64,000 bases of DNA from Wenyingzhuangia heitensis (lineage in GTDB: Bacteria; Bacteroidota; Bacteroidia; Flavobacteriales; Flavobacteriaceae): assembly GCF_011762155.1 (NCBI RefSeq), contig NZ_JAASQL010000001.1, forward strand, positions 930,001 to 994,000. Reading direction: 5' to 3'. Both the position numbers and the translations under genes were made by a program. The notes beneath the pieces were generated by a model, which saw nothing but the letters and a program-made list of their open reading frames with translations, was not told the DNA's origin and did no database searches. Within the stretch, counting starts at the first letter, position 1. The number at the start of each line of letters is the position of its first letter. Below, piece by piece: positions 39,784 through 58,169 of this stretch.

Positions 39784-41232
39784 TTAAAGCATTGCTTCTA
39801 TAAATTCTTTTTTAGGAGCCTCGCATAAACTACAAACATAGTCTGCAGGCAATTCGTTAAAAGAAGTTCCTGCTTTTATGTTCGCTTCTTCGTCTCCAAT
39901 AGTTTCGTCATAAACTGTCATACAGTTTTTACATTGATGAATTTGATGTTTGGAAAGTCCTGTATCTTTGTTTTCTTTTGGTTTTGCTACATTTTCTGCA
40001 CTTGTGTCTAGTTGATCAAAATACAATTGACTCAGTTTCATTAACAAACCAGGTAGTTCAATTTCTTCTACATTTTGTGCATACTGAATATATTCTCCTG
40101 TGTTAGGGTCAAAGTTTTTACAGTATAAAACATTGTAAGAATTAATGGTTTCAAACTCATTTGCTATTTTAGGTGATGGATTTTTTTCTATAATCATAGA
40201 AGTAAAATATCTAGGAGATTCACTTCTTTCATGATAGCCAATGGTTAATCCATAAGTACTAATATCATTCTGATCAAAAGATTTTACAATAAAACGTTTT
40301 AATTTTAAGGCTTCTGAATCGTTTACAGGTAAATGCCAGTTTAATTCTAAAGAGGAGTGACGAACGTTAATACCTCTTTGACCTAAAAACTTTTCTAGCA
40401 TAAATTTGTATTCCTTTTCAATCCCTTTTACAATAAAAGATTTCCAAGGAGTAATACAAATTCTACTAATTTTATAATCCATACAAAAATCACAAAATTC
40501 TTCTAAAAATTGAATGTCGTATTTGTTGTTTCTCCAATACAGTCCTAGCCAATATTGATTAATCCCCATCTTATTCATTCCTTCATAATAAGGGAACGGT
40601 CTAAAAGGAATAGACAAAGGTTCTGAAATTACTTTGTTGTTAGAGTCTACCAATTCGTTTACACGGTTGTATAAATCTTGAATGTTATCAAAGTTTTGAT
40701 ATTCTTCTTCTACCGCTTTTGCTACTTTAGAAATGTTCCATGTGTAGACTAAAACAGGGTAAGATGTGTGTTTGTCCCAGCCAGGTAAATTTAAGTTTAA
40801 ATACCAGTAATCTTCATTTTTAGAAGCAATAAAATTTAATTGTCCGTTGTAAATAGGAACTAAATTTTGTTGTGGATCTACAATGTTTATTTTTAAAGAA
40901 GGATTGTATTTAAATTCTTCGTGTAAATACAAATAAGTAGTGGCACTTAACCAAGATGTTTGTGGAAATACATCAGCACAAACATAAGAGGAGACAATGT
41001 TTTGAAACTTAAGACTCTCTTCTATATCTTGTTTAAACTGTGGGAAATAGGTTTTTAATAAATGTTCTTGATTTTGCTGAACAGGTAGTAAAATATCTTG
41101 CCTAGATCCAAAACTAATAGTTTTTAAGTTGAGTGCTTTTGCTAACTGAATTACTTGTTTTAATTCGTTAGGTGATATAACTCCTCCTTTTATAAATATT
41201 CTTTTTAATGTTTCTACCATCTTGTTAAGCAT
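39784..41232 (-). CDS. nitrite/sulfite-reductase-like protein with C-terminal rubredoxin domain
   Basis: 482 residues. The N-terminal part has two nitrite/sulfite reductase ferredoxin-like half-domains (GGVISPNELKQVIQLAKAL; SIPFRPFPYYEGMNKMGIN; RICITPWKSFIVKGI) but neither the C-x5-C nor the C-x3-C cluster motifs that hold siroheme and [4Fe-4S]. After a linker (about residues 410-430) comes a complete rubredoxin: CKNC and CSLC with the usual aromatic residues (MTVYDE, ADYVC). It overlaps the nitrate reductase gene by 8 bp. Likely role: electron carrier or accessory domain for the nitrate/nitrite pathway, with the reductase-like part acting as a non-catalytic scaffold. That role is inferred. 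Confidence 0.8.
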   Translation of the reverse strand: MLNKMVETLKRIFIKGGVISPNELKQVIQLAKALNLKTISFGSRQDILLPVQQNQEHLLKTYFPQFKQDIEESLKFQNIVSSYVCADVFPQTSWLSATTYLYLHEEFKYNPSLKINIVDPQQNLVPIYNGQLNFIASKNEDYWYLNLNLPGWDKHTSYPVLVYTWNISKVAKAVEEEYQNFDNIQDLYNRVNELVDSNNKVISEPLSIPFRPFPYYEGMNKMGINQYWLGLYWRNNKYDIQFLEEFCDFCMDYKISRICITPWKSFIVKGIEKEYKFMLEKFLGQRGINVRHSSLELNWHLPVNDSEALKLKRFIVKSFDQNDISTYGLTIGYHERSESPRYFTSMIIEKNPSPKIANEFETINSYNVLYCKNFDPNTGEYIQYAQNVEEIELPGLLMKLSQLYFDQLDTSAENVAKPKENKDTGLSKHQIHQCKNCMTVYDETIGDEEANIKAGTSFNELPADYVCSLCEAPKKEFIEAML

Positions 41233-44200
41233 TAATAGTCATTAATTCCTCTTTTAAAATATCTCTAACTTCGGGTTTACAACTTCCGCAACCCAAACCA
41301 GCACCTGTGGTTTTACAAAGCTCAGCAAAGTCTGTACAACCACCTGCAATTTTTTGTTTTAAGTTTCCATCTCCAACTTGACTACAAGAACAAACTAATT
41401 TTCCTATAACGGGTTCTCCGCCACCGCTACCACGTAATAATTCGTCACGTTTGTCAGACAGTTCTACTCGATCTTCTATCAAAGCTTTAAACTCTGCAAA
41501 TTCTTTTTTATCTCCCATTAAAACGGCACCTACCAAAATATCGTCTTTTACCACACATTTTTTATAATAGCGTTTGCGTTCATCGGTTAAAATAATTTGT
41601 TCGTAAGATTTGTCTCCTTTAGGAACTTCTATGTTACCAATGCTACACAGGTCTAGGTTTTCAAATTTTAGGATATTCATCAATACAGAACCATCATAAA
41701 CACTTCCTAAATCTCCTAAAATAAATTTAGCAGCAATATCTGCTTGTTGTTCTGCGGCAGAGGTAATTCCAAAAAGCCATCCGTTGTATTGTGCAATTTC
41801 TCCTAAAGCAAAAATAGCAGGATCACTAGATTGTAAATGTTGATTAACTTCTACACCTCTACCACAATTTAATTTAATAGCTCTACCTAATTCAACATTC
41901 GGAATGGTACCAATAGCATATACAATTGCATTGGTTTTTATTATTTTTCCTGTTTTTAAACGAACTTCTAATTCGGTTTCTTTTTCAGTTTCAAAAACAG
42001 TATCTACTTCGTTATTGTAATGAACTTGGATTCCTCTTTCGGCAACATCTTGCCCTAATAATCTACTAGATATTAAATCTAATTGACGTTCCATTAGTCT
42101 GTTGGCACGTTGTATAATACTGGACTGAATGTTAATTTTAGAAAGCGATGCAGCTAGTTCTAATCCTAACAGACCTCCACCTACAATAGTTACGTGTTGT
42201 TCTTTTTCTGGCAATCCTGTTTTTGCCAAATGAGATTTTAAATCGTCAGCATCTTTTTTGGTACGCATGGTAAAAGCACCAGGCATGTCTAGTCTAAAAT
42301 CTTTAGGAACAAAAGCTCTACTTCCTGTAGCCATAATTAAAATATCATAAGCGTGTGTTTTTCCGTTGCTATCTACAATGGTTTTTGCTTCTCTATTTAT
42401 TTTGGTAATGCTACAGTTTGCGTGAAGCGAAACTTTTAATTTTTCTAATTCACCTTGTTTTATTTTTTGTAATTGTTCCCAAGTCATTTCTTCGTTAATG
42501 TATTCGGGTAACATTACTCTGTTGTAAAATGGATAGGGTTCTAAAGAGAATACATCCAATTCATCTTCTGTATTGTGTTCTCTGTAGGTTTGTATAAATC
42601 TATACGATGCAGAACCAGCACCAATTAAACATATTTTTTGTTTTTCTTTTTTAAACTTTGTTACTTGTGCAACAGCGTGTTTAAAATCGGGTTCGCTAGA
42701 TATAGGATCAATTAATTCATTGGTTAAATTATTGGCTCTACCAAAATCATTGTCAGATATTTTACCAAAATGCATTGGCATAAAAATAGCTCCTTTTCTA
42801 ATATCTTTATTAATAACAGCTTTTACTCTAGTAGTTCCTCTGTTATTTTTAACAACCACAATGGTTCCCTCTTCTATATTTCTTTCTTTTGCATCGTCTG
42901 GATGTATTTCTACATAAGGACCATCAATATGGGTTAGCAAACGTTTTACTTTTCCTGTTTTGGTACGTGTGTGCCATTGGTCACGAATTCTACCAGTATT
43001 TAAAATTAACGGAAACTCTTCTGTGGGTTGTTCCGATTGATTGTAAATGTGTTGAGGAACATTAAAGTTTGCTTTTCCATCTGGAGTATAAAACTTTTTA
43101 TCTGTAAATAATCGTGAAGTTCCTTGGCTGTCTTCGTTTGGAAATGGCCATTGTACCGTTCCTAATTCTTTTAATTTTTGATAAGATAAACCAGAAATAT
43201 CAATATTAGTTCCTTTGGTCATCCTACAGTATTCCTGATAAACTTCTTCGGTGTTATTATAATCAAAACCTCTGTAGTTCATCGCTTGTGCAAATCTCCA
43301 TAAAATTTCAGCATCTGGTAAAGCTTCTGCTGGAGGTTCAATTCCTTTTTCTAGGTAAGAAATTCTACGTTCGGAATTAGACATGGTTCCCTCTTTTTCT
43401 AACCAACCCGCAGCGGGTAATAACAAATCGGCAAATTTGGTAGTTTCTGCGTTGTGAGAAATATCTTGAACTACTACAAATTTAGCTTTTTTTAGAGCTC
43501 TTTCTATTTTGTTAGAATTGGGTAAACTTACCACAGGGTTGGTGCAAATAATCCAAATAGCTTTTAAATCTCCTTTGTCTAAGGCATCAAACATTTTGGT
43601 AGCTGTGTAACCCGGTTTTGGGTTGATGGGATTGCTTCCCCAAAAATCTGAAACTTCTTTTCTGTGTTCTGGATTGTTTAAGTCTTTGTGTACAGCTAAC
43701 AAGTTTGCCATTCCTCCAACTTCACGACCTCCCATTGCATTAGGTTGTCCTGTTAAAGAAAAAGGTCCAGAACCAGGTTTACCAATTTGTCCGGTTACCA
43801 AAGAAATATTTAATAACGATACATTTTTATCTACTCCAATAATACTTTGGTTTAGTCCCATAGTCCACATGCTTATCAATCCTTTGGAATTTCCTATGTA
43901 TTTGGCAGCTAATTTAATTTCATCAGCAGGAATATCACAAATTTTAGCAGCTTCTTCTAAAGAGGTTTCAAAGACTTGTTTTTTTACATCTTCAAAATTA
44001 TTGGTGTGATTTAAAATAAAATCCAAATCAATTTTATCTGTTTCAATCAATTCACGAACAATGGCATTGTTTAAAATAACATCGGTTCCTTGTTGAATTT
44101 GCAAATGTAAATCTGCAATAGCAGCAGTTTGTGTTTTACGTGGGTCTACCACAATAAACTTAGTATCTGGATTGGCTTCTTTATGAGCTTCTAATCTTCT

Positions 44201-44755
44201 GTATAAAATTGGGTGGCACCAAGCAGGATTTGCTCCTGTAATTAAAAAAGTATCGGCCAATTCAATATCAGCATAGGCAATAGGAACAGAATCTTCACCT
44301 AGTGCTTTTTTATATCCCACTACTGCAGAACTCATACATAACCTAGAGTTGGTATCTATATTGTTGGTTCCTATAAAACCTTTGGTTAGTTTGTTAACTA
44401 AGTAGTATTCTTCGGTTAAACATTGTCCAGATACGTAAAAACCAACACTGTCTGGTCCGTGTTTTTTAATAATGGATTTAAAAACCGCAGCAGCTCTTTC
44501 AAAAGCGGTATCCCAAGAAACTCTTTTTAATGGATGATTTTTACTCCATTTCATTTCAGGATATAAAATACGATCGGTAGTGTCTTGTGCAACATAATGG
44601 AGATTCATCCCTTTAGAACAAAGCATTCCTTTGTTTACAGGATGTTCTGTGTCTCCTGTAACTTTTAAAGTTCCGTTATTATCTTTATTAACTATAATTC
44701 CACAACCGACTCCACAGTAAGAACAAGTTGTTTTGTATGATTTATTTGCAGACAT
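41225..44755 (-). CDS. nasC: assimilatory nitrate reductase with fused FAD/NAD(P)H domain and BFD-type [2Fe-2S] tail
   Basis: 1176 residues in three blocks. Residues 1-700: molybdopterin oxidoreductase with the [4Fe-4S] motif CSYCGVGC...MLCSKG and Mo-ligand-region DTNSRLCMSSAV, plus the C-terminal molybdopterin-dinucleotide-binding domain (GRIRDQWHTRTKTGKVKRL). Residues ~705-1095: pyridine nucleotide-disulfide reductase-like FAD/NAD domain (ICLIGAGSASYRFI; THAYDILIMATGSRAF; VGGGLLGLELA) as in NirB. C-terminus: BFD-type [2Fe-2S] domain (LVCSCSQVGDG...CKTTGAGLGCGSCKP). The arrangement would let a single chain take electrons from NAD(P)H to nitrate. It is the first gene of a run through moeA-moaA. 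Confidence 0.92.
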   Translation of the reverse strand: MSANKSYKTTCSYCGVGCGIIVNKDNNGTLKVTGDTEHPVNKGMLCSKGMNLHYVAQDTTDRILYPEMKWSKNHPLKRVSWDTAFERAAAVFKSIIKKHGPDSVGFYVSGQCLTEEYYLVNKLTKGFIGTNNIDTNSRLCMSSAVVGYKKALGEDSVPIAYADIELADTFLITGANPAWCHPILYRRLEAHKEANPDTKFIVVDPRKTQTAAIADLHLQIQQGTDVILNNAIVRELIETDKIDLDFILNHTNNFEDVKKQVFETSLEEAAKICDIPADEIKLAAKYIGNSKGLISMWTMGLNQSIIGVDKNVSLLNISLVTGQIGKPGSGPFSLTGQPNAMGGREVGGMANLLAVHKDLNNPEHRKEVSDFWGSNPINPKPGYTATKMFDALDKGDLKAIWIICTNPVVSLPNSNKIERALKKAKFVVVQDISHNAETTKFADLLLPAAGWLEKEGTMSNSERRISYLEKGIEPPAEALPDAEILWRFAQAMNYRGFDYNNTEEVYQEYCRMTKGTNIDISGLSYQKLKELGTVQWPFPNEDSQGTSRLFTDKKFYTPDGKANFNVPQHIYNQSEQPTEEFPLILNTGRIRDQWHTRTKTGKVKRLLTHIDGPYVEIHPDDAKERNIEEGTIVVVKNNRGTTRVKAVINKDIRKGAIFMPMHFGKISDNDFGRANNLTNELIDPISSEPDFKHAVAQVTKFKKEKQKICLIGAGSASYRFIQTYREHNTEDELDVFSLEPYPFYNRVMLPEYINEEMTWEQLQKIKQGELEKLKVSLHANCSITKINREAKTIVDSNGKTHAYDILIMATGSRAFVPKDFRLDMPGAFTMRTKKDADDLKSHLAKTGLPEKEQHVTIVGGGLLGLELAASLSKINIQSSIIQRANRLMERQLDLISSRLLGQDVAERGIQVHYNNEVDTVFETEKETELEVRLKTGKIIKTNAIVYAIGTIPNVELGRAIKLNCGRGVEVNQHLQSSDPAIFALGEIAQYNGWLFGITSAAEQQADIAAKFILGDLGSVYDGSVLMNILKFENLDLCSIGNIEVPKGDKSYEQIILTDERKRYYKKCVVKDDILVGAVLMGDKKEFAEFKALIEDRVELSDKRDELLRGSGGGEPVIGKLVCSCSQVGDGNLKQKIAGGCTDFAELCKTTGAGLGCGSCKPEVRDILKEELMTINA

Positions 44756-44783: not shown

Positions 44784-44825
44784 CAAAGATATAAAAAATA
44801 CGTATATATTAAGTATATATACGTA
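44784..44825 (-). promoter_or_regulatory. nasC promoter and TACGTA-type operator
   Basis: On the minus strand TATCTTTG (44784-44791) fits the -7 box, but there is no TTG -33 box. Instead an inverted repeat TACGTATATA...TATATACGTA covers 44799-44825, with TACGTA cores exactly 21 bp apart, in the position where an activator would substitute for the -33 element. Confidence 0.6.
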
Positions 44826-44896: not shown

Positions 44897-45610
44897 TTAT
44901 TTTTTAAGATATTTTTTGATCCATTCTTGTTCTGATAGAGCTTTAAATTTTTTGATTCCTTTGTAAGGATCGTCTCCTCCTTTAAAGTAAGCCTTAATTT
45001 TTTTCAGGGGAATAGTATCTTTCATTAAAAGAGCAGCTTCTGCTTGATGATTTCCGTGAAAATCATGACATTGTAAGCAGGTTGTCCATAGCCCTTTTTT
45101 GAACAATTCTGAATGAGGAACGTCTATAGGGTCGTCTTTAATTTTGGTATCGCTGTGGCAGTTTATACAATAGTTGCCTTGTGTTAAACTAACTCTAATT
45201 CCGTTGTGTTCGTTATGGCACGTAGCACAATTAGTAGCATCAATTTTTTGAATGGCTTTTAGGTGTTTAGGTTCTAAAAAACGATGTGTAGGATGTCTGT
45301 CATTATCTCTATCGTGACAAGAAAGACATTTTTTGGTGTTTACAGGAAGAGATCCAAATTCTACCATTTTTTTTCGTAATCCAAGTGCGTGTTCAGAATT
45401 GGATTGAATTTGTTGTAGCCAATTTCCTCTAGCATCTGCATGACAGGTGTTGCAAGAAAATCCTTCATGACCAGTATTCATAGGGCCAATGCTTAGGTAT
45501 TCTTCTGCGGGTTTTACAAATAGCAAGCATAAAATAGCAGTAATAGCTATTGTAGTACCAATTAGTATTCCAAAAAATTGTCTTTTTCTAAGCGGATTAA
45601 TTTCAAACAT
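44897..45610 (-). CDS. membrane-anchored pentahaem cytochrome c
   Basis: 237 residues. An N-terminal membrane helix (about 11-33) anchors a periplasmic domain with five CxxCH haem c motifs: CNTCH53-57, CLSCH95-99, CATCH128-132, CINCH148-152, CLQCH178-182. Further His residues (HLKAI, HNGIR, HGNHQ) can serve as distal ligands. It loosely resembles cytochrome c3/NapC-type electron carriers but no family was recognised. It is the last gene of the globin-led five-gene unit, 3 bp after the flavoprotein gene, and 141 bp separates it from nasC. Probable job: periplasmic electron transfer; partner unknown. Confidence 0.85.
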   Translation of the reverse strand: MFEINPLRKRQFFGILIGTTIAITAILCLLFVKPAEEYLSIGPMNTGHEGFSCNTCHADARGNWLQQIQSNSEHALGLRKKMVEFGSLPVNTKKCLSCHDRDNDRHPTHRFLEPKHLKAIQKIDATNCATCHNEHNGIRVSLTQGNYCINCHSDTKIKDDPIDVPHSELFKKGLWTTCLQCHDFHGNHQAEAALLMKDTIPLKKIKAYFKGGDDPYKGIKKFKALSEQEWIKKYLKK

Positions 45611-45612
45611 AA

Positions 45613-46638
45613 TTAGGCGATTTTAATCGTTACATTTTCGCTATTAGGATACGTAATACAGGTTAAAACCTCTCCATCGTTTACTTGTTCATCACTAAGT
45701 AGATGGCCTTTACTCATAATAGTTTCTCCATCTATACAATTGCCTTTGCAGGTACTACACATTCCTGATCTACAAGAATAGGGAAGAGGTATGTTTTTAG
45801 ACATGGCTTGTTGTAGTATGGTTTTGTTACCGGGTACTTCTAGTTGATACGTTTCTTTGTTGTAGTGAATGGTTACGTTACTAACCAAGTTTTTTCTATC
45901 TATTTTAATGGTAGGAGCTTTAAAAGCCTCTAGCATTATTTGTTTTCTTTCAACACCTTTATTTTTTAGGATCTGAACGGTGTTGTCCATAAAACCTGTT
46001 GGGCCACACATCATGTATTTGTGATTGCTAAAAGTTAGGTTGTATTTGTTAAAAATGATTTCTAGAATTTCTTGTGTTAAAAAACCGGTATGATGTTTAG
46101 GGTCTAGATTCTCGCTAAGAATATGCTCTACATATAGTTGATTAGCGTTTTCTTGTTCTAATTTTTTTAACTCATTGTAAAAAATAATATTCTCCTTGTC
46201 GTGATTCGCATAAATCAAAAGTATTTTAGATTTAGGCTCTTTGGCTATTACGGATTTTAGAATTGAATACACAGGAGTGATACCGCTACCAGCTCCAAAA
46301 AGGATATATTGTGTACTGTTTTCTTTATTAGGGGTAATGTTAAAAGTTCCCATCGCAATATCTACCTTTACTTTGTCTCCAACTTTTAATACATTATTTA
46401 TGTAGTTAGAAACGTAGCCGCTCTTTACTTTTTTTACTGTAATTTTTAGGTCTTTGTCTGTGTCTGGGCTACTGCTAAAAGAATAGGCTCTTTTTACGGT
46501 GTCTTTTCCTATTTTAAAATCTAACATGATGAATTGACCAGGTAAATATTTAATCTTTCTAAAAAAATTACCATTTTTAAAACACACAGTTACTGCTTCT
46601 GGAGTTTCTTTAATTATATGTGTTACTTTTAATATCAT
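45613..46638 (-). CDS. FAD/NAD(P)H oxidoreductase with C-terminal plant-type [2Fe-2S] ferredoxin domain
   Basis: 341 residues from ATG 46638 (an upstream in-frame methionine at 46740 lies inside the neighbouring gene and is unlikely). N-terminal ferredoxin-NADP reductase-type FAD domain (LPGQFIMLDFKIG, VKRAYSFSSSPD), NAD-binding GSGITPVYSILKS, MMCGPTGFMDN, and the C-terminal ferredoxin with SCRSGMCSTCKGNC and a final Cys (TCITYP). This is the reductase arrangement of class IB/phenol-hydroxylase- or NO-dioxygenase-type reductases. Upstream gene encodes a haem-b-like membrane protein (17 bp), downstream gene the pentahaem cytochrome. Electron acceptor unknown. Confidence 0.9.
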   Translation of the reverse strand: MILKVTHIIKETPEAVTVCFKNGNFFRKIKYLPGQFIMLDFKIGKDTVKRAYSFSSSPDTDKDLKITVKKVKSGYVSNYINNVLKVGDKVKVDIAMGTFNITPNKENSTQYILFGAGSGITPVYSILKSVIAKEPKSKILLIYANHDKENIIFYNELKKLEQENANQLYVEHILSENLDPKHHTGFLTQEILEIIFNKYNLTFSNHKYMMCGPTGFMDNTVQILKNKGVERKQIMLEAFKAPTIKIDRKNLVSNVTIHYNKETYQLEVPGNKTILQQAMSKNIPLPYSCRSGMCSTCKGNCIDGETIMSKGHLLSDEQVNDGEVLTCITYPNSENVTIKIA

Positions 46639-46655
46639 TGTTGTAGTTCCTGCGG

Positions 46656-47135
46656 TTATTTGTAGTAAAATACAGTTCCTATATGAAGAAATAGAATTAC
46701 TGTAATAAGCATAGATAGGCTTACATGTGCTATCATCCATCCTTTAAAAATCCACTCTTTATGAGATTTTATCACATCAAGGTTAATGGTGCCAAGTAGC
46801 ATATTTGCAAAAAAGACATAGCTTAATAGAGCTAGGTATCCGTATCCGTAACTTGTTGCGTGTATGTAGAATAGTATAGGACTAAAAGCTCCTATCCATT
46901 TGTGAATTTTGGTGAATGTTACAGCGTGTTTTTTTAGTTTGGTAATAATTCTAGTAAACGTTAAAAACCATTGAAAGGCTATAAATAACGCTATAGCAAA
47001 CCCACTCCATCTTTTAAATAATTCTTGAGATTGGAGATTTTCTAAAAAAGGTATTTTTAAGCCAAGTATATCCTGTAGAATGTAGCTACAGAATAATACT
47101 AGACTTATAAAAGTTATAGCTTTTTGATTTTTCAA
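46656..47135 (-). CDS. ferric-reductase-like haem b membrane protein
   Basis: 159 residues, about five hydrophobic membrane helices. Two His pairs with the H-x13-H spacing typical of bis-haem b domains are present: His78/His92 (HKWIGAFSPILFYIH) and His137/His151 (HVSLSMLITVILFLH). This spacing is the hallmark of ferric reductase/NOX-type transmembrane domains, which carry electrons from a cytosolic flavoprotein across the membrane. Here the flavoprotein is a separate adjacent gene. No database match was made; the assignment rests on His spacing and gene context. Confidence 0.7.
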   Translation of the reverse strand: MKNQKAITFISLVLFCSYILQDILGLKIPFLENLQSQELFKRWSGFAIALFIAFQWFLTFTRIITKLKKHAVTFTKIHKWIGAFSPILFYIHATSYGYGYLALLSYVFFANMLLGTINLDVIKSHKEWIFKGWMIAHVSLSMLITVILFLHIGTVFYYK

Positions 47136-47143
47136 GATGTTTC

Positions 47144-47962
47144 TTATTTCATTAATGAAGACATGGTAATGTAGGCAGATAGTTTTCTTACACTATCAAT
47201 AAATACTTCTGGTGCAGGTAGGTATTTACCATTTGATGGCCATTTTTTTCCAACTTCTGGTTTCTCACTTTCTTTAAAGTTCTTAATTTCCTCTAAGTAA
47301 TCGTTGTAAACAGCAGTAGTACCATCTCTATAAGCTTTTAAAACACTCATTGCTTCGGTGTAGCTTAGTGAATCTGCCGGATATTGCCAAGTGGTTGTTC
47401 CCATAACATCTCCTAATTTCCAGTCGGTTTTAGTCGTTTTTGGGTGTTTGTTATGGCAGCTTACACAGGCTGGTGCTCCTGCAACATCTGCAAACATAGC
47501 GGTGTATAGTTTTGTGTCTTCGTCAAAAAAATGTTTAGGTTTTCTGTTTTCCTTAATATCTTTATATAAATCGGCTTGTTTACCTTCTAATTGGTTAGAT
47601 GCGTTAATAGGGAAATCAGAACTTAAATAAAGTCCTAAAGGAACATCTCCTTTGCGAATGTCGTTAGCAATACCTCTTAAAAATAAAGCGGGTAATGGAC
47701 CTGCTTCTACTTTTTCATCTTGCCAATCTTCGTCAAATTTAAAACCTTGTTTTTTACCACCTCCTACAATTGCTTTGGTGTAAAGAGTTCTTGTTATGTC
47801 GTTTTCATGGGCTACCATCGTTAAAACATCCGCTACAGAAAAAGATTTTTTTTCAGAGTTGGTTGATGATGTTTCCTCGGGTACACCTCCACAGGAAATA
47901 AGGATTAAAGACAGTGTTATAAAAGAGAATAATTTTTTTAAAAGGAATATAAAGGTTTTCAT
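47144..47962 (-). CDS. DUF3365/Tll0287-like haem lipoprotein
   Basis: 272 residues from ATG 47962, which gives a proper lipoprotein signal (FSFITLSLILISC-G); a longer in-frame start at 48040 lies inside the globin gene. The mature protein contains a single haem c motif, CVSCHNKHP, placed after ...MFADVAGAPA, characteristic of DUF3365 (Tll0287-like) haem sensor/periplasmic domains, with WPSNGKYLPAPE near the end. Second gene of the module. Possible role as periplasmic redox or ligand sensor, or as electron carrier; neither is shown. Confidence 0.82.
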   Translation of the reverse strand: MKTFIFLLKKLFSFITLSLILISCGGVPEETSSTNSEKKSFSVADVLTMVAHENDITRTLYTKAIVGGGKKQGFKFDEDWQDEKVEAGPLPALFLRGIANDIRKGDVPLGLYLSSDFPINASNQLEGKQADLYKDIKENRKPKHFFDEDTKLYTAMFADVAGAPACVSCHNKHPKTTKTDWKLGDVMGTTTWQYPADSLSYTEAMSVLKAYRDGTTAVYNDYLEEIKNFKESEKPEVGKKWPSNGKYLPAPEVFIDSVRKLSAYITMSSLMK

Positions 47963-47985
47963 GTTGATTATTTTTAGGGTTAAGT

Positions 47986-48471
47986 TTAATAAGCTGCTTC
48001 TATCATTACAGATGCCATTAGTCCGTAAACATCGGTCCAAGCTTGTTTAACTTCTGGGGTAAAATCATCTCCCAAACCAACGGCTAAAGTACCAATTAAT
48101 GCGGCTCCAACAGTGTCATAATGTGATTTTTCAACACGATAAGCAATGTGTCTTTTTCCTAAGTCTTGTAATACAGGAATTAAGGCTTCAATGTTAGAGA
48201 GTCCTGCAACTGCGGCAGAAAGCATTGTCATTAATTTGTTTCCTTGTTCTTTCATTTTGTCTTTGTCAGCAGCGGGAAACATAGGTTTAAGTTTAGGGTC
48301 TAATTCAAACAATTTTGAATAAAAAATATCTGCTGCTGTGGCTGCAATCGGTTTTACGGCTTCAAAAGAAACTTGAACCAATTCTATGGTTTTTGCGGGG
48401 ATAATTTCTTCTTTTTCAGCTACGGTTTCTGTCTTCTTTTTGCCAAATAATTTGGATAAAAATGAGCTCAT
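47986..48471 (-). CDS. single-domain globin (flavohaemoglobin-type globin fold)
   Basis: 161 residues: TIELVQVSFEAVKPIAATAADIFYSKLFELDPKLKPMF, and proximal His in GKRHIAYRVEKSHYDTVGAALIGTL. A single-domain haemoglobin of the FHb/SDgb lineage, without its own flavin domain. It begins with a Lys-rich segment (FGKKKTETVAEKEEI) before the globin. First gene of the five-gene module, which provides a separate reductase of the type that flavohaemoglobins carry fused. Possible NO dioxygenase, O2 sensor or electron sink. Upstream 48480-48635 shows no obvious promoter box or TACGTA motif. Confidence 0.9.
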   Translation of the reverse strand: MSSFLSKLFGKKKTETVAEKEEIIPAKTIELVQVSFEAVKPIAATAADIFYSKLFELDPKLKPMFPAADKDKMKEQGNKLMTMLSAAVAGLSNIEALIPVLQDLGKRHIAYRVEKSHYDTVGAALIGTLAVGLGDDFTPEVKQAWTDVYGLMASVMIEAAY

Positions 48472-48705: not shown

Positions 48706-49896
48706 TTATAAAAATTTTGGTTTAATTACTAACATAAGCCAAGCCCAGTTTTGAGAGTCTTTTGCTCCTGAAACTGCATCTGGTTCAAAAAATTGAGAAT
48801 AACCTCCTACTAGAGAATATCCTTTAAATTTTTTGGCAACAACTAAATCTAATTCTGTTCCTAAATTGTCTTTTCCTAGGGATTCTTCAGAAAAGTGGTG
48901 TCCTTTTACTTTTACAGCATATCCTTTAATATTTGTAGCAATTCCTAAGTTTAAATCTACCAATCCACCAGCGTTTGCATGGTTTCCTACGTAAAATCTA
49001 TCCATCAAGCCATTAAATGCGTGGTTGGTTCCGTACAAAGGAAAGAATGCAGCGGAATCATCTTTTTTTCCCGAGATAAATTCGGCTCCAGCGCTAATAC
49101 TTGTTTTTTCGGTGGCTTTAATACTTGCATCTAAACTAGCTAAGTAAGCTCCTTTAACATCTAAATCTCCAATTCTTTTACCATCCTGAATATAAGCGTT
49201 AGCTTTTAAGGTAACAATGTCAATTTTATAATCAGCGTGTAAACCAGCTGTTAATAATGTTGATTTGTTTTCTGTAGCGGCTTGGTATGTGTTTGCTAAA
49301 ATTAACGCGCTTATGTTAAAGTTGTTGTATTTTTTGTTAGCGTGAACAAAGGCCATTTCTCTATATGAAAATAAAGAAGCGGTATCGTAAATAGAACTGT
49401 CAGGAGTGTTTAAAGCACCACCAATATTTAAAGAGTATCCTTCTTTGTTGTATTTAAAAACACCTGCATCGTGAGTTCTTGCTTGTTGTGCCCAACCAAG
49501 TCCTCCTAAAATTCTTTGATCATCATAAGATAAAGGTTGGCGACCAATTTTAAAAGTTGAGGTTTCGCTTAATTTAATGTCTGCCCAAGCTTCTTGTACT
49601 CTAAAGTTTCCGTTTCCAGTTGCTGATATTTGAGGACGATCTCCAAACTTGAATACTTCTTGAATCCCTAAGTAGGTTGTGTAACTTTCTGTTTTGTAAG
49701 TTGCGTTTAAAGCTGCTCTAACACTTGTAGAAACATAACCATCTGTTCCTGTTGCTGCTGTTTTAGATTGTCCGTGACCAAACCATTCTGAACGGGGTCT
49801 AAATTCTCCTTCTAAAGAAAAGCTTGGGGTTTCTTGTGCGTTTGCAATTGCTGTAAATGCAAAAGTAGCAGCTAATAATGATTTAGTTAATTTCAT
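48706..49896 (-). CDS. alginate-export-family-like outer-membrane porin
   Basis: 396 residues with a signal peptide (LLAATFAFTAIANAQ) and an antiparallel-barrel composition ending in Phe-Leu (IKPKFL). The opening FSLEGEFRPRSEWFGHG and repeated short beta strands match the alginate-export (AlgE/OprD-like) family of general substrate porins. It lies directly downstream of the nitrate-type ABC transporter genes on the same strand, 80 bp after the last ATPase gene, so the natural reading is a nitrate-permeable outer-membrane pore. The substrate is inferred from that context only. Confidence 0.75.
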   Translation of the reverse strand: MKLTKSLLAATFAFTAIANAQETPSFSLEGEFRPRSEWFGHGQSKTAATGTDGYVSTSVRAALNATYKTESYTTYLGIQEVFKFGDRPQISATGNGNFRVQEAWADIKLSETSTFKIGRQPLSYDDQRILGGLGWAQQARTHDAGVFKYNKEGYSLNIGGALNTPDSSIYDTASLFSYREMAFVHANKKYNNFNISALILANTYQAATENKSTLLTAGLHADYKIDIVTLKANAYIQDGKRIGDLDVKGAYLASLDASIKATEKTSISAGAEFISGKKDDSAAFFPLYGTNHAFNGLMDRFYVGNHANAGGLVDLNLGIATNIKGYAVKVKGHHFSEESLGKDNLGTELDLVVAKKFKGYSLVGGYSQFFEPDAVSGAKDSQNWAWLMLVIKPKFL

Positions 49897-49976: not shown

Positions 49977-50789
49977 TTAGTGTTCTAAAAAGTCAATCAA
50001 ATGTTTTCTGTATTTATAGTAATCATCATGTTCTAAGATTGCTTTACGTGTTCTAGGTCTTTCAAATTCAATAGGTAAAACATCTCCAATTTTTGCTCTG
50101 GGTCCACTCGTCATCATTACGACTCTGTCTGCTAAGAAAATAGCTTCATCCACATCGTGAGTAATCATAACGGCTGTAATTTTTTCTTTGTTCCAAACAT
50201 CAATCAATACATCTTGTAATTGACCTCTGGTTAAAGAATCTAACATTCCAAAAGGTTCGTCTAATAATAGTACTTTAGGTTTAATAGCAAAAGCCCTTGC
50301 AATACCTACACGCTGTTGTTCTCCTTGGGAAATATCTGAAGCTCTTTTGTGAAAAGAACTTTCCATTCCTACTTTGTGTAGATAGTATTTACAGATGTCT
50401 TCCTTTTGCTTTTTACTAGCATGAGGATATACTTTTTTTACACCTAGCATTACGTTTTCCATTGTGGTTAACCATGGCATTAAGCTTGGTGCTTGAAAAA
50501 TAACACCTCTATCAGGTCCTGGTCCTTTTATGCTAGTTCCTAGTACGGAAATTTTTCCACCAGAAATTTCATTCAAACCAGCCATCATAGAAAGCATGGT
50601 TGTTTTTCCGCAACCAGAGTGACCAATAATGGTGATGAATTCTTCTTTTTTAATTTGAAGGTTTAGGTTTTCTAAAACCACATAATCACCTTTGGGTGTT
50701 GGGTATACTTTTTTTAAGTCTATTAAATCTAGCATTACTTCGTTAGAAGGAAAGCGTTCTATTTTAGGGTTGTTGGTAATAAGAGTCAT
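49977..50789 (-). CDS. nrtD: ABC transporter ATP-binding protein (nitrate type)
   Basis: 270 residues: Walker A GHSGCGKTTM, signature SQGEQQRVGIARA, Walker B KVLLLDEP and switch His (MMITHD-type, AVMITHDVDEA). Homologous to NrtD/SsuB. Second ATPase of the transporter. The stop of the preceding ATPase gene is 12 bp upstream. Its N-terminal residues (LITNNPKIERFP) are a short extension. Confidence 0.9.
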   Translation of the reverse strand: MTLITNNPKIERFPSNEVMLDLIDLKKVYPTPKGDYVVLENLNLQIKKEEFITIIGHSGCGKTTMLSMMAGLNEISGGKISVLGTSIKGPGPDRGVIFQAPSLMPWLTTMENVMLGVKKVYPHASKKQKEDICKYYLHKVGMESSFHKRASDISQGEQQRVGIARAFAIKPKVLLLDEPFGMLDSLTRGQLQDVLIDVWNKEKITAVMITHDVDEAIFLADRVVMMTSGPRAKIGDVLPIEFERPRTRKAILEHDDYYKYRKHLIDFLEH

Positions 50790-50801
50790 AGTTACAGTTT
50801 T

Positions 50802-51653
50802 TTAATTAGCATCCCATCTAAAGTCTTTTGGCTGAATTTCTGGCAACTCATAAGTTGCTGTGCTTTCTGCTGCTTGGGCATCACCTAAATTCATTAAATA
50901 TTCAATAATCTGATTACGAGTTTTTTTGTATTCAGGATCATCGTTTAATGCTGTTTTATTTCTGGGTCTTTCTATGTTTACTTTAAATTCTGGTCCTAAA
51001 GTAGCTTTAGGTCCTGGCTTTAATGGAATAATTCTATCAGCCATGTAAAGTGCTTCGTCAACATCGTTGGTAATTAATAAAGCCGTGCGCTTGTTTCTTT
51101 CCCAAATTTTAAGAATTTCATCTTGTAAATTTCCACGAGTTAAAGCATCTAGCGCTCCAAGAGGTTCGTCCATAATAATCATTTCAGGATCCATGGCCAA
51201 TGCTCTGGCTACAGAAACACGTTGTCTCATTCCTCCGGAAAGTTCTTTAGGTCTTTTGTTGGTAGCGTGTGTTAGTCCTACCATTTCTATATATTCTTTT
51301 ACTCTAACGTCTTTTTCTTTTTTAGAAGCTTTTGGAAATGCTTCTTGGATTGCCATATCTATATTTTGATAAACCGTTAGCCAAGGTAGTAGTGAGTAGT
51401 TTTGAAAAATAACTCCACGTTCGTGACTTGTGTCTTCTACAGTGTTTCCTTTAAAAATAACTTTACCTTCTGTTGGTTTTAACAGACCATTAATTAGGTT
51501 GACTAAGGTTGTTTTTCCACTTCCTGAAAAGCCAACAATAGCTACAAACTCTCCTTCTTCAATAGTTAGGTTGATATTGTCAAGAATCTCTCCTTTGTCT
51601 TCCTTTGCAGGATTGTAGGTTTTATAGATGTTTTTTAGTTCTAATATTGCCAT
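50802..51653 (-). CDS. nrtC: ABC transporter ATP-binding protein (nitrate type)
   Basis: 283 residues: Walker A GFSGSGKTTL, signature LSGGMRQRVSVARA, Walker B MIIMDEP, and LLITNDVDEA in the switch region (Asn instead of the usual His). It lacks the NrtA-like C-terminal substrate-sensing domain that cyanobacterial NrtC carries, ending after a short tail (ELPEIQPKDFRWDAN). Two separate ATPases for one permease fit an NrtC/NrtD pair. Lies 20 bp after the permease gene. Confidence 0.88.
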   Translation of the reverse strand: MAILELKNIYKTYNPAKEDKGEILDNINLTIEEGEFVAIVGFSGSGKTTLVNLINGLLKPTEGKVIFKGNTVEDTSHERGVIFQNYSLLPWLTVYQNIDMAIQEAFPKASKKEKDVRVKEYIEMVGLTHATNKRPKELSGGMRQRVSVARALAMDPEMIIMDEPLGALDALTRGNLQDEILKIWERNKRTALLITNDVDEALYMADRIIPLKPGPKATLGPEFKVNIERPRNKTALNDDPEYKKTRNQIIEYLMNLGDAQAAESTATYELPEIQPKDFRWDAN

Positions 51654-51673
51654 AATATTGTGTTTAAGGATTC

Positions 51674-52771
51674 TTAAATTGTTTCTTTTTCGAATGAAAT
51701 CAAGTTTTGAATAAATAACATGATTCTATCTAGAGCGAAACCAATCATACCAATAATAAACATGGCTACAATAATTTTTGAGTTAGAATCCATGGCTCCA
51801 TTTTGAAACTCTTCCCAGACAAATGATCCTAATCCTGGTGATTGTGCTAATAGTTCTATAGCAATTAATACCATCCAGGCTACAGATAAAGTAATACGTA
51901 ATCCTGTAAAAATTAAAGGTAAAGATGCAGGTAGTATCACTTTAAATATTTTTTGCATTGGTCTTAGTCTTAATATTTTTGCTACGTTTATATAATCTGT
52001 GTTAACAGAGGCAACTCCCATTGCTGTGTTTACTAATGTTGCCCACATAGAACAAAGTCCTACAGAAATAAATGAGATGATAAACGCGCTATCTCCTTCT
52101 GAGTTTTTAGTCAATGTTTTTACAATCATAAAAACTAATAACAGCCATACAACGGGAGATACAGGTTTAAGAATTTGAATAACCCAGTTAATAGAACCTC
52201 TTAAGGTGGAACTCAGTCCAATTACAATTCCAATAGGAACAGCAATAAATAAAGCCAATAAAAAACCTGCAAATACAGTTTTTAAACTTGTTTTGATTTG
52301 ATCTACAAATGAAGGTCTACCTGTGTAGGTAATAATTGATTTTCCTTGTTTTACACGTTTTTTATTCAATTCAAAAGTCTTTTCTTTAAAAGCTTTTTTA
52401 TCAGCAGCAATTGTTTTGTGGTCTTTTAAAAGTGTTAAATAAGAAGCGTACACCTGAGCAGGTGAGGGTAGTGTGTTTGGCTGACAGCTAGGGTCTCCAG
52501 ACTCCATACATTCTTTTACTTTTTGAGCTTCTGCTTCTCCTTGACTTTTTAACGTTGCTTCAATCTTATAATCAGCTTCTATATTGTACAAAGCTGTTGA
52601 TCCTAATTGCCAAAGTCCTACAAAAATGAAAACGGATGCTATAGGAGCAACTATTTTTCTAAATACTTCTTTGATGTTTTTTTTAGGTTCTTCTTTGTTG
52701 ATTAAACGTATTAATGGTTCTAAAAAACCAAGTCCAATAAACTTAATTACTCTGATGATTGAATCTTTCAT
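51674..52771 (-). CDS. nrtB: ABC transporter permease (nitrate type)
   Basis: 365 residues. Binding-protein-dependent transporter inner-membrane component with the EAA-type loop in the second half (VASVNTDYINVAKILRLRPMQKIFKVILPASLPLIFTGLRI). Unlike most NrtB proteins it has an extra ~110-residue segment between membrane helix 1 (KIVAPIASVFIFVGLWQLG) and helix 2 (about residue 170), with a cysteine pair CMESGDPSC and a basic stretch. This probably forms a periplasmic loop. The start is 101 bp after the nrtA stop, across an intercistronic hairpin. Confidence 0.88.
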   Translation of the reverse strand: MKDSIIRVIKFIGLGFLEPLIRLINKEEPKKNIKEVFRKIVAPIASVFIFVGLWQLGSTALYNIEADYKIEATLKSQGEAEAQKVKECMESGDPSCQPNTLPSPAQVYASYLTLLKDHKTIAADKKAFKEKTFELNKKRVKQGKSIITYTGRPSFVDQIKTSLKTVFAGFLLALFIAVPIGIVIGLSSTLRGSINWVIQILKPVSPVVWLLLVFMIVKTLTKNSEGDSAFIISFISVGLCSMWATLVNTAMGVASVNTDYINVAKILRLRPMQKIFKVILPASLPLIFTGLRITLSVAWMVLIAIELLAQSPGLGSFVWEEFQNGAMDSNSKIIVAMFIIGMIGFALDRIMLFIQNLISFEKETI

Positions 52772-52820
52772 GATGTATTGTGTTTTCCTTAATGTGCTCT
52801 TAAATATTCAGTAGTTTTAA

Positions 52821-52853
52821 AATAAGGAGCGCTAAGAGTTAGTGCTCCTTATT
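52821..52853 (-). promoter_or_regulatory. intercistronic hairpin between nrtA and nrtB
   Basis: AATAAGGAGC (52821-52830) and GCTCCTTATT (52844-52853) form a 10-bp stem in the gap after the nrtA stop. Read on the minus strand it is followed by TTTTAAAA. It may partly terminate or protect the mRNA, making more binding protein than permease. Confidence 0.7.
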
Positions 52854-52872
52854 TTGTAATCTTTTAAGTAGA

Positions 52873-54246
52873 TTAGTCTTTGTTACCAATTTTAAATGAA
52901 TTGATGTATCCTATTGGATCTTTACCATCATATTTGTTACCATCAATAAAATCTGTAGTTGCAGGTTTGTAACCGTCTGTTGCAGGAATGTCCGTTGCAG
53001 GTATTTTACCTTCTGTAACTAAAATATCTGCTGCTTTTTTCCAGATATCAGGTCTGTAAATTTTAGCGGCTGTTTCAGCATACCATTCAGCTGATTTAGT
53101 TTCAGGAATTTGTCCCCATCTTCTCATTTGAGTTAAGAACCAAACTGCATCAGAATAAAATGGATAAGTTGCGTTGTAACGGTAGAATACGTTAAAATCA
53201 GGCATTTCACGTTTGTCACCTTTTTCAAATTCAAACGTACCAGTCATAGAGTTTGCAAGTACTGTTTCATCTGCTCCAACATATTGTGGCATAGATAATA
53301 TTTTTACTGCTTCGGTTCTGTTTCCTGGAGCATCTAGCCATTGTCCTGCTCTAATTAATGCTTTGGTTACAGCAACAGTGGTGTTTGGATATTTTTCTGT
53401 AAATTCTTTCGTCATTACAAATACTTTTTCTGGATTGTTTTTCCAAATATCGTAGTTGGTAGTAACTGGTACACCAATTCCTTTAGCAACTGCTTGTTGG
53501 TTCCAAGGTTCACCTACACAATATCCATAAATAGTTCCTGCTTCTAATGTAGCTGGCATTTGTGGTGGAGGAGTTACAGATAACAATACTTCAGCATCAA
53601 TTTGACCTTGAATATTGTCTGCAGAATACATACCGGGTTTAATTCCGGCAGCAGCTAACCAATATCTAATTTCGTAGTTGTGTGTAGATACAGGAAAAAC
53701 CATTCCCATTTTAAAAGGCTTACCTTCGTTTTTGTATTGGGTAATAACCGGTTTTAATGCATCAGCACTGATAGGGTGAATTGGTTTTCCGTTTTCGTCC
53801 TTTTTAACGTGTGGTTTCATTCCTTCCCATACTTTGTTAGATACGGTAATTCCGTTTCCGTTTAAGTCCATAGAAAAAGCCGTTACTAATTCTGCCTGAC
53901 GACCGAACCCTGCTCCTGCGGCAATAGGTTGTCCTGCTAACATGTGAGATCCGTCTAATTGACCATCAATAACTCTGTCTAAAATATTTTTCCAGTTAGA
54001 TTGTGCTTCTACAGAAACAAATAAACCTTCGTCTTCAAAAAAACCTTTCTCTTTTGCAATTGCTAAAGGAGCCATATCGGTTAGTTTGATGAATCCAAAT
54101 GTTAATTGTGGTTTTTCAATTTCTAAACTAGTAACAGCAGGTGTGGTTGTTTCTACTGTTTTAGTTTCTTTTTTCTTTCCTCCACAAGATGCTAACATAA
54201 TAGCAGCTGCAAACAGTGTAGAAGCTTTTAAAAATGTAATTTTCAT
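52873..54246 (-). CDS. nrtA: ABC transporter nitrate-binding lipoprotein (NrtA-like)
   Basis: 457 residues. The leader ends in a lipobox (IMLASC-GG), so it is tethered to a membrane. The mature domain has the NrtA/CmpA/SsuA fold with [55 protein letters not shown] and an [20 protein letters not shown] region. Nitrate is the preferred ligand by context (nitrate reductase, NirBD and molybdopterin genes on either side), but bicarbonate or sulfonate binders share the fold. First gene of the ABC set, with its own TACGTA-flanked promoter. Confidence 0.88.
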
Positions 54247-54289
54247 ATTAAGTGATTTTAGTTAATTACGTATTGATACTTACTTTTAG

Positions 54290-54412: not shown

Positions 54413-55126
54413 TTAACTATCTAAGAAGAAGTTGTGTTCAGAGATTTCCTTCTTTAGTTTACTGATATTTAATATTTTAATTATTTTTGATTTCGTGTAT
54501 ATTAAATTTTCTTTCTTAAGGGCAGATAGAATACGTATTACTTGTTCGTCTGTTGTACCTGCGTAATCTGCTAGTTCTTTTCTAGATAGTTCTAATCCTA
54601 AAGTACCGTCTTCAGAGTTTCCAAACTTTCTATATATGTATAATAGCATGTCTATAACTTTTTCCCTTACCGTCATCTGAGACATTGTCTTTACTTTGGT
54701 TTCACTACGGTTAAGTTCTTCGGCATAAAAATGCATAAAATCAAAAGTTACTTTTGGTTCTGCTAAAAGTATTTCTTTTAGTAGAGCTGTAGAAAAGTTA
54801 CATAGTATAGTGTCTTCAATAGCTGTGGCTCCTATCTTGTAGGTTTCTCCCATTCCAAAACCTCTATGGCCAATAACCTCACTGTCTTTAGATAGTCTTA
54901 GTATTTGTTCTTTTCCGTTGTAACCTGTTTTTATCACTTTTACTTTTCCGCTGTATATAAAATAGAGTCCGTTTACAGGAGCACCTTCCATAATAAACTG
55001 TCTAGATTTTTTACACTGTATAGTGTGTTTCTGATTGGTGATATCGGAATTTAGGTTGTTTATATGTACTAAGTTTTTTTTAATTAAGCACTTTTCGTTT
55101 GTGCATTCTGAACAGCTGTAATTCAT
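54413..55126 (-). CDS. Crp/Fnr-family regulator with N-terminal cysteine cluster (FNR-like)
   Basis: 237 residues: cyclic-nucleotide-binding-type beta-roll, dimer helix (FDFMHFYAEELNRSETKVKTMSQM) and a C-terminal helix-turn-helix (LSRKELADYAGTTDEQVIRILSALKKE). N-terminal Cys5, Cys8 and Cys13 (CSECTNEKC) and Cys109 (AIEDTILCNFST), in the place of the fourth ligand of E. coli FNR (Cys122), suggest an oxygen- or NO-sensitive [4Fe-4S] cluster. The recognition helix DEQVIRIL has the E..-IR form rather than FNR's E..-SR, which fits a different operator. It lies between nrtA and nirB, divergent from nirB; no TACGTA core was found outside these promoters and the gene's own 3' side. Confidence 0.9.
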   Translation of the reverse strand: MNYSCSECTNEKCLIKKNLVHINNLNSDITNQKHTIQCKKSRQFIMEGAPVNGLYFIYSGKVKVIKTGYNGKEQILRLSKDSEVIGHRGFGMGETYKIGATAIEDTILCNFSTALLKEILLAEPKVTFDFMHFYAEELNRSETKVKTMSQMTVREKVIDMLLYIYRKFGNSEDGTLGLELSRKELADYAGTTDEQVIRILSALKKENLIYTKSKIIKILNISKLKKEISEHNFFLDS

Positions 55127-55131
55127 GTTTC

Positions 55132-55189
55132 TACGTATTTAAAGAACAAATATACTTATTAATTTTGTTAATCTAAGTATTACTACGTA
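55132..55189 (+). promoter_or_regulatory. TACGTA operators in the crp-nirB divergent region
   Basis: TACGTA cores at 55132-55137 and 55184-55189 flank an inverted repeat ATACTTA (55152-55158) ... TAAGTAT (55174-55180), 15 bp apart. The second core overlaps the nirB -7 box. Confidence 0.5.
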
Positions 55190-57744: not shown

Positions 57745-57794
57745 TTTCTTTATAATAACTAAGAGTATTTTAAAATTTAAATTCGAGAAACATT

Positions 57795-58169
57795 ATGGAT
57801 ACATTACAATCTAAATATAAAACGGTAAAAGTAGATGAGGTAAAAGAGTGGTTTAAAGCTGCTCCGATAAGTGCTTTTTCTGTAAATGGTGGGGCATGTG
57901 TTAAATATAAAGACCTACAAATTGCAGTGTTTAATTTTGAGAGATTTAATAATTGGTATGCATGCCAAAATTTATCGCCAGCAAAAAACGAAATGGTGTT
58001 GTCAAGAGGGATGTTGGGAGATCATAAAGGGGTTCCAAAAATTGCTTGTCCATTGTTGAAAAATACATTTTCATTAGAAACAGGTGAGAATTTAAATGGG
58101 GATTTAGAACCTATTGCAATTTATCCTGTAAAAATTAAAGACGGATTCGTCTATATCGGTACTCATTAG
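57795..58169 (+). CDS. nirD: nitrite reductase small subunit
   Basis: 124 residues with the NirD fold (Rieske-like). The Rieske cysteine-histidine pairs are not conserved (YACQNLSP; KIACPLLKNTF, no His), as known for NirD-type subunits that do not bind a cluster. Pairs with NirB 50 bp upstream. Ends in DGFVYIGTH; a terminator follows. Confidence 0.93.
   Translation: MDTLQSKYKTVKVDEVKEWFKAAPISAFSVNGGACVKYKDLQIAVFNFERFNNWYACQNLSPAKNEMVLSRGMLGDHKGVPKIACPLLKNTFSLETGENLNGDLEPIAIYPVKIKDGFVYIGTH

Follow-up and report, generated by a model that had tools for sequence, protein, structure and literature searches.

A conserved five-gene globin and haem redox cassette tied to nitrate genes in Wenyingzhuangia heitensis and related bacteria, with a possible role in nitrosative stress

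A 64,000-nucleotide stretch of the Wenyingzhuangia heitensis genome (assembly GCF_011762155.1, contig NZ_JAASQL010000001.1, positions 930,001 to 994,000; hereafter the window) contains, within an island of nitrate genes, five closely spaced genes that form a genuine unit, conserved together far beyond chance. In order of transcription (minus strand, 48471-44897) they encode a single-domain globin, a DUF3365 haem lipoprotein, a small membrane protein with two H-x13-H pairs (TM), a reductase with flavin adenine dinucleotide (FAD), nicotinamide adenine dinucleotide (NAD) and [2Fe-2S] domains, and a membrane-anchored pentahaem cytochrome c; the gaps between them are 23, 8, 17 and 2 base pairs (bp). 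The reductase, TM and the cytochrome, leading to the lipoprotein, are referred to below as the wire. The reading favoured here, which has about an even chance of being correct, is that these genes are a nitrosative-stress cassette of the nitrate regulon, in which a cytosolic nitric oxide (NO) dioxygenase would act alongside a haem wire running from reduced NAD or NAD phosphate (NAD(P)H) to the periplasm. It is based on the gene set with its fixed order, on ligand residues that are conserved, on the association with nitrate uptake, on a palindrome present in most relatives, and on an axial Cys missing from the lipoprotein.

The five gene identities and their coordinates (Table 1) had been proposed in an initial annotation; Pfam, NCBIfam and motif checks found them correct, and the genes stand mostly as first read. 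The TTG start of TM is backed by relatives that begin at the same place. The reductase lies in a mechanical open reading frame from 46740, but its relatives begin at an ATG at 46638. Its nearest NCBIfam models are PaaE and the NADH oxidoreductase PRK10684, both matched below cut-off.

Genome counts for TM, the lipoprotein, the binding protein NrtA and the globin were obtained from 199 sampled Flavobacteriaceae genomes. TM was present in 16 of these, precisely those that also had the lipoprotein. NrtA (E ≤ 1e-50) was found in 38, among them all 16 carriers of the cassette; were the genomes independent, the chance of this would be P = 1.4e-13, a value that is an indication only because the genomes are related. 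The gene order was then compared in 15 relatives, fetched as stretches of 20 kilobases (kb) each. The order globin-DUF3365-TM-reductase-cytochrome was kept in all 15, in 13 the gene immediately ahead of the globin was that of a regulator, and 14 carried a nitrate transporter or reductase gene within their 20 kb; at locus L029, NrtA sits on a different contig.

A scan of named genomes, using patterns derived from Flavobacteriaceae that distant relatives would escape, returned 96 TM relatives, and the 80 best of these are the named loci used here (10 of the 15 fetched relatives overlap with them). Their titles are those of Flavobacteriaceae, other Bacteroidota or, in one case, merely 'bacterium'. 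The full five-gene order was found at 68 of the 80; the other 12 lacked only the globin next to the lipoprotein, or were cut, and seven of them carry a globin elsewhere in the stretch. The reductase gene immediately follows that of TM at all 80 loci, the cytochrome gene is never more than three genes away (at L112 one CcmF-like gene intervenes), and DUF3365 stands directly ahead of TM at 79, the exception (L070) beginning at a contig end. Six stretches hold no listed nitrate gene (L057, L064, L070, L077, L081 and L098); two of these are contigs shorter than 8 kb, and Crp and molybdenum-cofactor genes are present at L081 and L098. When 395 genomes of the phylum were searched with a TM profile, only the gene from the window's own genome and two remote, weak matches came up; these two belong to the TM-decahaem clusters described below. 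The conserved gene set linked to nitrate genes that the initial annotation had envisaged is thus borne out, and the searches made of Pfam, NCBIfam and the Protein Data Bank gave no strong homology to a described complex.

Many of these loci share a palindrome, TAAGTA-N4-TACTTA, frequently TAAGTATTAATACTTA, which lies upstream of the globin at 46 of the 68 loci with a plus-strand globin. Within the 80 named loci (1.54 megabases in all) the exact palindrome occurs 129 times, against an average of 0.56 and a maximum of 10 for 59 other half-sites composed of the same letters. For 118 of the 129, a cassette or nitrate-related gene starts no more than 140 bp away: 52 precede the globin (at 51 of the 80 loci), 31 NrtA, 15 Crp, 8 NasA, 6 DUF3365, 5 the porin and 1 NirB. 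Nine of the other 11 are ahead of unlabelled frames and two are ahead of none. Where the globin is detached (L062, L063 and L066), it and the lipoprotein operon each have a palindrome of their own. In six whole genomes the palindrome was found 0 (W. heitensis), 5, 8, 5, 3 and 4 times, and a reversed control 3, 1, 1, 2, 1 and 1 times; 20 of the 25 sites in the five genomes other than that of W. heitensis are ahead of cassette, NrtA, Crp, NasA, NarK-like or NirB genes, and five are ahead of other genes. FNR, CRP and TTGAC/GTCAA boxes were found upstream of the globin at none of the 68 loci. The window itself contains variants before NrtA, before NasA and between Crp and NirB (Table 1). Across the window, sites with two mismatches or fewer number 10 against 11.15 expected, no more than chance would give, so the case for the palindrome rests on its position and on the relatives. 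The Crp/FNR-family regulator of the island would be the protein that reads the palindrome. All 53 of its sequences contain Cys 5, 8 and 13, 52 have Cys 38 and 48 have Cys 109, a pattern that we take to be FNR-like.

The closest solved relatives of the globin are 3s1i, 3ubc and 3wfw, three bacterial globins presumed to be from Methylacidiphilum, followed by Vitreoscilla haemoglobin and then, among others, by flavohaemoglobins. The protein aligns with the 3s1i and Vitreoscilla globins and has a globin fold. The proximal His, a Tyr and a Gln are invariant in 16 of 16 cassette globins; the positions of the Tyr and the Gln are presumably B10 and E7, which we take to be marks of a flavohaemoglobin-type NO dioxygenase. 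It is the only globin in its own genome at E ≤ 1e-4, the threshold at which globin-like matches were counted in 27 of the 199 family genomes. Globins more than 45% identical to it were found in the 16 carriers and in two further genomes: G180, which contains locus L151, and G035, where the surroundings of the globin showed no recognisable nitrate or cassette gene. At L035, L036 and L037 a tandem pair of globin frames lies just upstream of DUF3365, ahead of the cassette. One family genome without the cassette (G185, contig C55, 10939-11802) has a single 607-codon frame with two globin matches.

The His pairs of TM (H78/H92 and H137/H151) are invariant in all 16 carriers and in 50 of 50 aligned sequences. 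In the structure model (pLDDT 89) the protein comprises five long helices, with the pairs on the third and fifth, an arrangement that we assume to be that of ferric reductases and NOX enzymes; the transmembrane family of those enzymes has a six-helix fold. The window protein scores 15.5 bits against PF01794, below the cut-off of 28. Of 50 TM members, 46 match that family at E ≤ 0.1 (best 6.3e-6), and the TM profile found nothing among Protein Data Bank sequences at E ≤ 10. On the PF01794 matches, a remote relationship between TM and the ferric reductases is supported. The proposal that TM and its neighbour are a split NOX/ferric-reductase stands as regards this remote kinship and the two His pairs; membership of the family does not, given the sub-threshold score, the lack of a fold match and the five predicted helices. 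The resemblance extends to a separate FAD/NAD reductase encoded beside TM. Unlike in ferric reductases and NOX, this PaaE-like reductase is a protein of its own with a C-terminal [2Fe-2S] domain, and electrons would go on to an anchored pentahaem cytochrome.

In that cytochrome the five CXXCH motifs and six further His residues (48, 106, 135, 166, 185 and 188) are invariant in 27 of 27 aligned sequences (27 of the 80 available), enough for bis-His haems. As the reductase is always beside TM (80 of 80 loci) and the globin a less constant neighbour (68 of 80), the main client of the reductase is more likely to be the wire than the globin. The presence of the reductase also suggests that electrons flow outward. 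In two clusters from other members of the phylum (L154 and L155) a longer TM protein of di-haem type is encoded beside an anchored cytochrome with ten CXXCH motifs, after a 4Fe-4S protein that binds cyclic nucleotide monophosphate. The profile E-values, calculated on a test set of six proteins, were 1.3e-7 and 2.4e-7 for TM and 7.7e-7 and 7.1e-5 for the cytochrome; in TM only the last helix is similar. These clusters share with the cassette an adjacent pair of remote homologues; unlike it, they have the 4Fe-4S input, and no DUF3365, globin or nitrate gene was seen in 14-15 kb. We read the TM-cytochrome pair as an older conduit with an exchangeable cytoplasmic input. By eye, both clusters continue with an FHA-like and a kinase-like protein.

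The lipoprotein passes the PF11845 cut-off (Table 1), and its single CXXCH is invariant in 45 of 45 aligned sequences. The best Foldseek match of its model (pLDDT 87.8) was Tll0287 (5b82), with a probability of 1.00 and a TM-score of 0.62 on the target, but an E-value of 1.7e-3; sequence searches of the Protein Data Bank with the single sequence and with a profile gave nothing useful. According to a preprint (PMC12889525), DUF3365 (sCache_heme) domains carry haem c; a stand-alone protein with Cys/His haem ligation binds NO weakly, and a HAMP-joined protein without the Cys binds it tightly. In the cassette proteins the motif of the axial Cys reads GPxPAxxxR in 79 of 79 (GPLPALFLR96 in the window). 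None of these 79 has a Cys 20-100 residues ahead of the CXXCH, compared with all 18 stand-alone PF11845 proteins, in which it is mostly within GPxxAIxVC or RVC motifs; one of 12 longer PF11845 proteins has such a Cys. For this comparison 30 loci were fetched (65 of 198 phylum genomes match PF11845), and proteins of fewer than 300 residues were taken as stand-alone. Motifs were compared because the lipoprotein, when aligned to its PF11845 relatives, was out of register ahead of the CXXCH. The missing axial Cys therefore makes it likely that the haem is open or otherwise ligated, and capable of binding a ligand. Like DUF3365/Tll0287 proteins, the lipoprotein is a stand-alone PF11845 match with a Cache-like fold nearest Tll0287 and one CXXCH; unlike them, it lacks the axial Cys, has an invariant Arg in the motif, bears a C-terminal extension of about 80 residues, has a lipobox and has fixed partner genes. 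Following the lipid Cys, the stretch CGGVPE (residues 24-29, window ~47893-47876) is nearly invariant in 45 sequences, which is unusual for a linker; it is perhaps a sorting signal.

The favoured reading can be set out as follows, with the haem loading, electron direction, partner contacts and substrate that we infer. The reduction of nitrate and of nitrite would yield NO as a by-product. In the cytosol the globin, a putative NO dioxygenase, would oxidise NO to nitrate, and an NAD(P)H flavoprotein, which may be the reductase encoded nearby, would return the globin iron to the reduced state. In the membrane the reductase would hand electrons from NAD(P)H to two b haems of TM, through which they would cross the inner membrane and reach the pentahaem cytochrome and then the lipoprotein. 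The haem of the lipoprotein, without its usual axial Cys, could probably bind NO or nitrite and either reduce or scavenge it.

The closest known system is the narK-bjgb-flp-nasC operon of Bradyrhizobium japonicum (PMC4724949). According to that paper, the assimilatory nitrate reductase of this organism can make NO, which a co-expressed single-domain globin and flavoprotein counter; the operon is expressed together on nitrate and protects against NO. In both systems genes for a single-domain globin and an NAD(P)H flavoprotein lie beside those for an assimilatory nitrate reductase and an ATP-binding cassette nitrate transporter. Unlike for the cassette, no membrane haem protein, multihaem cytochrome or DUF3365 protein is named in the available part of the Bradyrhizobium account. 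Flp is proposed there to supply the nitrate reductase as well; that of the window carries fused FAD/NAD and BFD domains and so probably needs no separate reductase. The palindrome before the globin at 51 of the 80 loci, missing from that position in the window and at L033-L038, may point to co-regulation of the Bjgb-Flp type. The globin and the FAD/NAD domains of the reductase are also related to the two halves of flavohaemoglobin (Hmp), unlike which they are separate proteins, the reductase having an added [2Fe-2S] domain. The NO-defence role first suggested for these genes fits the globin and the Bradyrhizobium precedent (PMC4724949), and to that extent stands. The literature searched held no account of this gene combination, although coverage of subscription journals was thin and one may be published elsewhere.

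Several observations weigh against this reading. The cassette is missing from 22 of the 38 NrtA genomes, so nitrate uptake does not need it; when the stretches around NrtA in these 22 were inspected over up to 20 kb, most had transporter genes with Crp, nitrate/nitrite reductase or molybdenum-cofactor genes, as in carriers. Only one of these stretches has a globin: at L151, from a close relative (Crp 88% identical), it stands alone between the porin and nitrate reductase genes, and the globin and the wire can therefore separate. Other long globin-bearing frames show no pattern of replacement, being found in 3 of the 16 carriers, 2 of the 22 NrtA genomes without the cassette and 6 of the 161 others. 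The palindrome is missing from the globin promoter in the window (8 of 12 positions match) and at L033-L038 (7 to 9 of 12), and a terminator-like hairpin, seen by eye, lies between the window globin and the upstream gene. Foldseek gave no match for the TM model at E ≤ 0.001. In the lipoprotein, Met156 and His173 are invariant and either could be the sixth haem ligand. A hidden Markov model of 17 stand-alone DUF3365 proteins failed to align through the Cys motif, and the Pfam register there is good only to about three residues; replacement of Cys by Arg therefore rests on the motif. Finally, the preprint proposes a redox, not an NO-binding, role for stand-alone DUF3365 proteins (PMC12889525).

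Other explanations were weighed against the same observations. The reductase, TM, the cytochrome and the Cache-fold lipoprotein could together be a new, NAD(P)H-driven periplasmic NO or nitrite reductase, the lipoprotein being catalytic with its axial Cys lost and a distal Arg in place; this is a tentative possibility. The wire might instead supply NAD(P)H electrons to periplasmic Nap/Nrf, with the lipoprotein as carrier or docking partner and the globin as a separate NO safeguard, which is consistent with NapA-like genes in 8 and NrfA-like genes in 5 of the 80 stretches and with a palindrome common to cassette and nitrate genes. Such a supply is unlikely, however: within the fetched stretches NapA or NrfA occurs at only 13 of the 80 loci, against 27 for the cytoplasmic NasA, Nap clusters bring their own iron-sulphur, NrfD-like and multihaem proteins, and Nap is present at L146 and L147, where the cassette is missing. 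That the globin and the wire are separable (the lone globin of L151; a wire without an adjacent globin at 12 of 80 loci, seven with a globin elsewhere) and that the Cys residues of the regulator form an FNR-like pattern would also suit a globin that, fed by the reductase, detoxifies NO by itself while TM, the cytochrome and the lipoprotein are a valve dumping surplus NAD(P)H electrons into the periplasm. This is quite unlikely, as most loci encode no terminal acceptor beyond the lipoprotein, and the open haem would be left without explanation.

The presence of CcsA-type genes in 28 of the 80 stretches, and of the CcmF-like gene inside the L112 operon, raised the question of a service to cytochrome c assembly, in which the wire would keep periplasmic haem or CXXCH thiols reduced under nitrite or NO stress; in Shewanella, the maturation of cytochrome c is reported to be impaired by nitrite and NO (PMC9697910). 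This role was considered and dropped as improbable: 52 of the 80 stretches, including window-type relatives, have no CcsA-type gene, and maturation of the cassette's own haems explains the association equally well. Extracellular metal reduction, another role suggested initially, is very improbable and was also dropped. The multihaem cytochrome is weakly similar to decahaem families, but the role itself gained no positive support; the only multihaem genes beside the cassette were nitrate/nitrite-reductase cytochromes, with one single-haem cytochrome in addition, no outer-membrane haem conduit was noticed in the listed neighbourhoods (no genome-wide search for one was made), and 20 of the 25 palindrome sites in five genomes precede nitrate or cassette genes.

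The cassette is surrounded in the window by the nitrate genes listed in Table 1; the island also holds an Rrf2 regulator and molybdenum-cofactor genes. At 39784-41232 a 482-residue protein combines a match to the ferredoxin-like half domain of nitrite/sulphite reductases with a C-terminal rubredoxin, and its gene comes after that of the nitrate reductase in relatives too. At L042 (12297-15887) and other Aquimarina loci the cassette is followed by a gene for a single-haem cytochrome lipoprotein-like protein and by CcsB/CcsA-like genes.

Table 1. Features of the cassette and the surrounding nitrate island, in window coordinates.
Feature	Coordinates	Strand	Basis
Single-domain globin, 161 residues (P0005)	47986..48471	-	PF00042, 69.5 bits (cut-off 22)
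DUF3365/Tll0287-like haem c lipoprotein, 272 residues (P0004)	47144..47962	-	PF11845, 30.1 bits (cut-off 24.1); one CXXCH; lipobox Cys24
Ferric-reductase-like membrane protein (TM), two H-x13-H pairs, 159 residues (P0001)	46656..47135	-	TTG start
FAD/NAD(P)H/[2Fe-2S] reductase, 341 residues (P0002)	45613..46638	-	PF00970, PF00175, PF00111
Membrane-anchored pentahaem cytochrome c, 237 residues (P0003)	44897..45610	-	Cytochrome c3-type Pfam matches; five CXXCH; N-terminal hydrophobic stretch
Assimilatory nitrate reductase (NasA) with own NirB-like FAD/NAD and BFD domains	41225..44755	-	
Palindrome variant before NasA gene	44810..44825		11/12 positions
Porin-like outer-membrane protein	48706..49896	-	Sub-threshold PF13372 Alginate_exp match
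NrtA-like binding protein, permease and two ATPases (nitrate uptake, label from context)	49977..54246	-	PF13379 for binding protein; kept beside cassette in relatives
Palindrome variant before NrtA gene	54267..54282		11/12 positions
Crp/FNR-family regulator of island, candidate palindrome reader	54413..55126	-	PF00027, PF13545; best NCBIfam match Fnr, under cut-off
Palindrome variant between Crp and NirB genes	55174..55189		11/12 positions
NirB and NirD, assimilatory nitrite reductase	55231..58169	+	

How nitrate-using marine Flavobacteriaceae handle NO and nitrite was not described in the papers searched, and the cassette offers a testable answer, while the predicted regulatory site marks a small nitrate regulon. 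The lipoprotein may exemplify a haem protein with a sensor fold that has become the end of a redox chain supplied by NAD(P)H from the cytoplasm. The TM-cytochrome pair, which occurs with two kinds of cytoplasmic input protein, may serve more generally as a conduit in the inner membrane.

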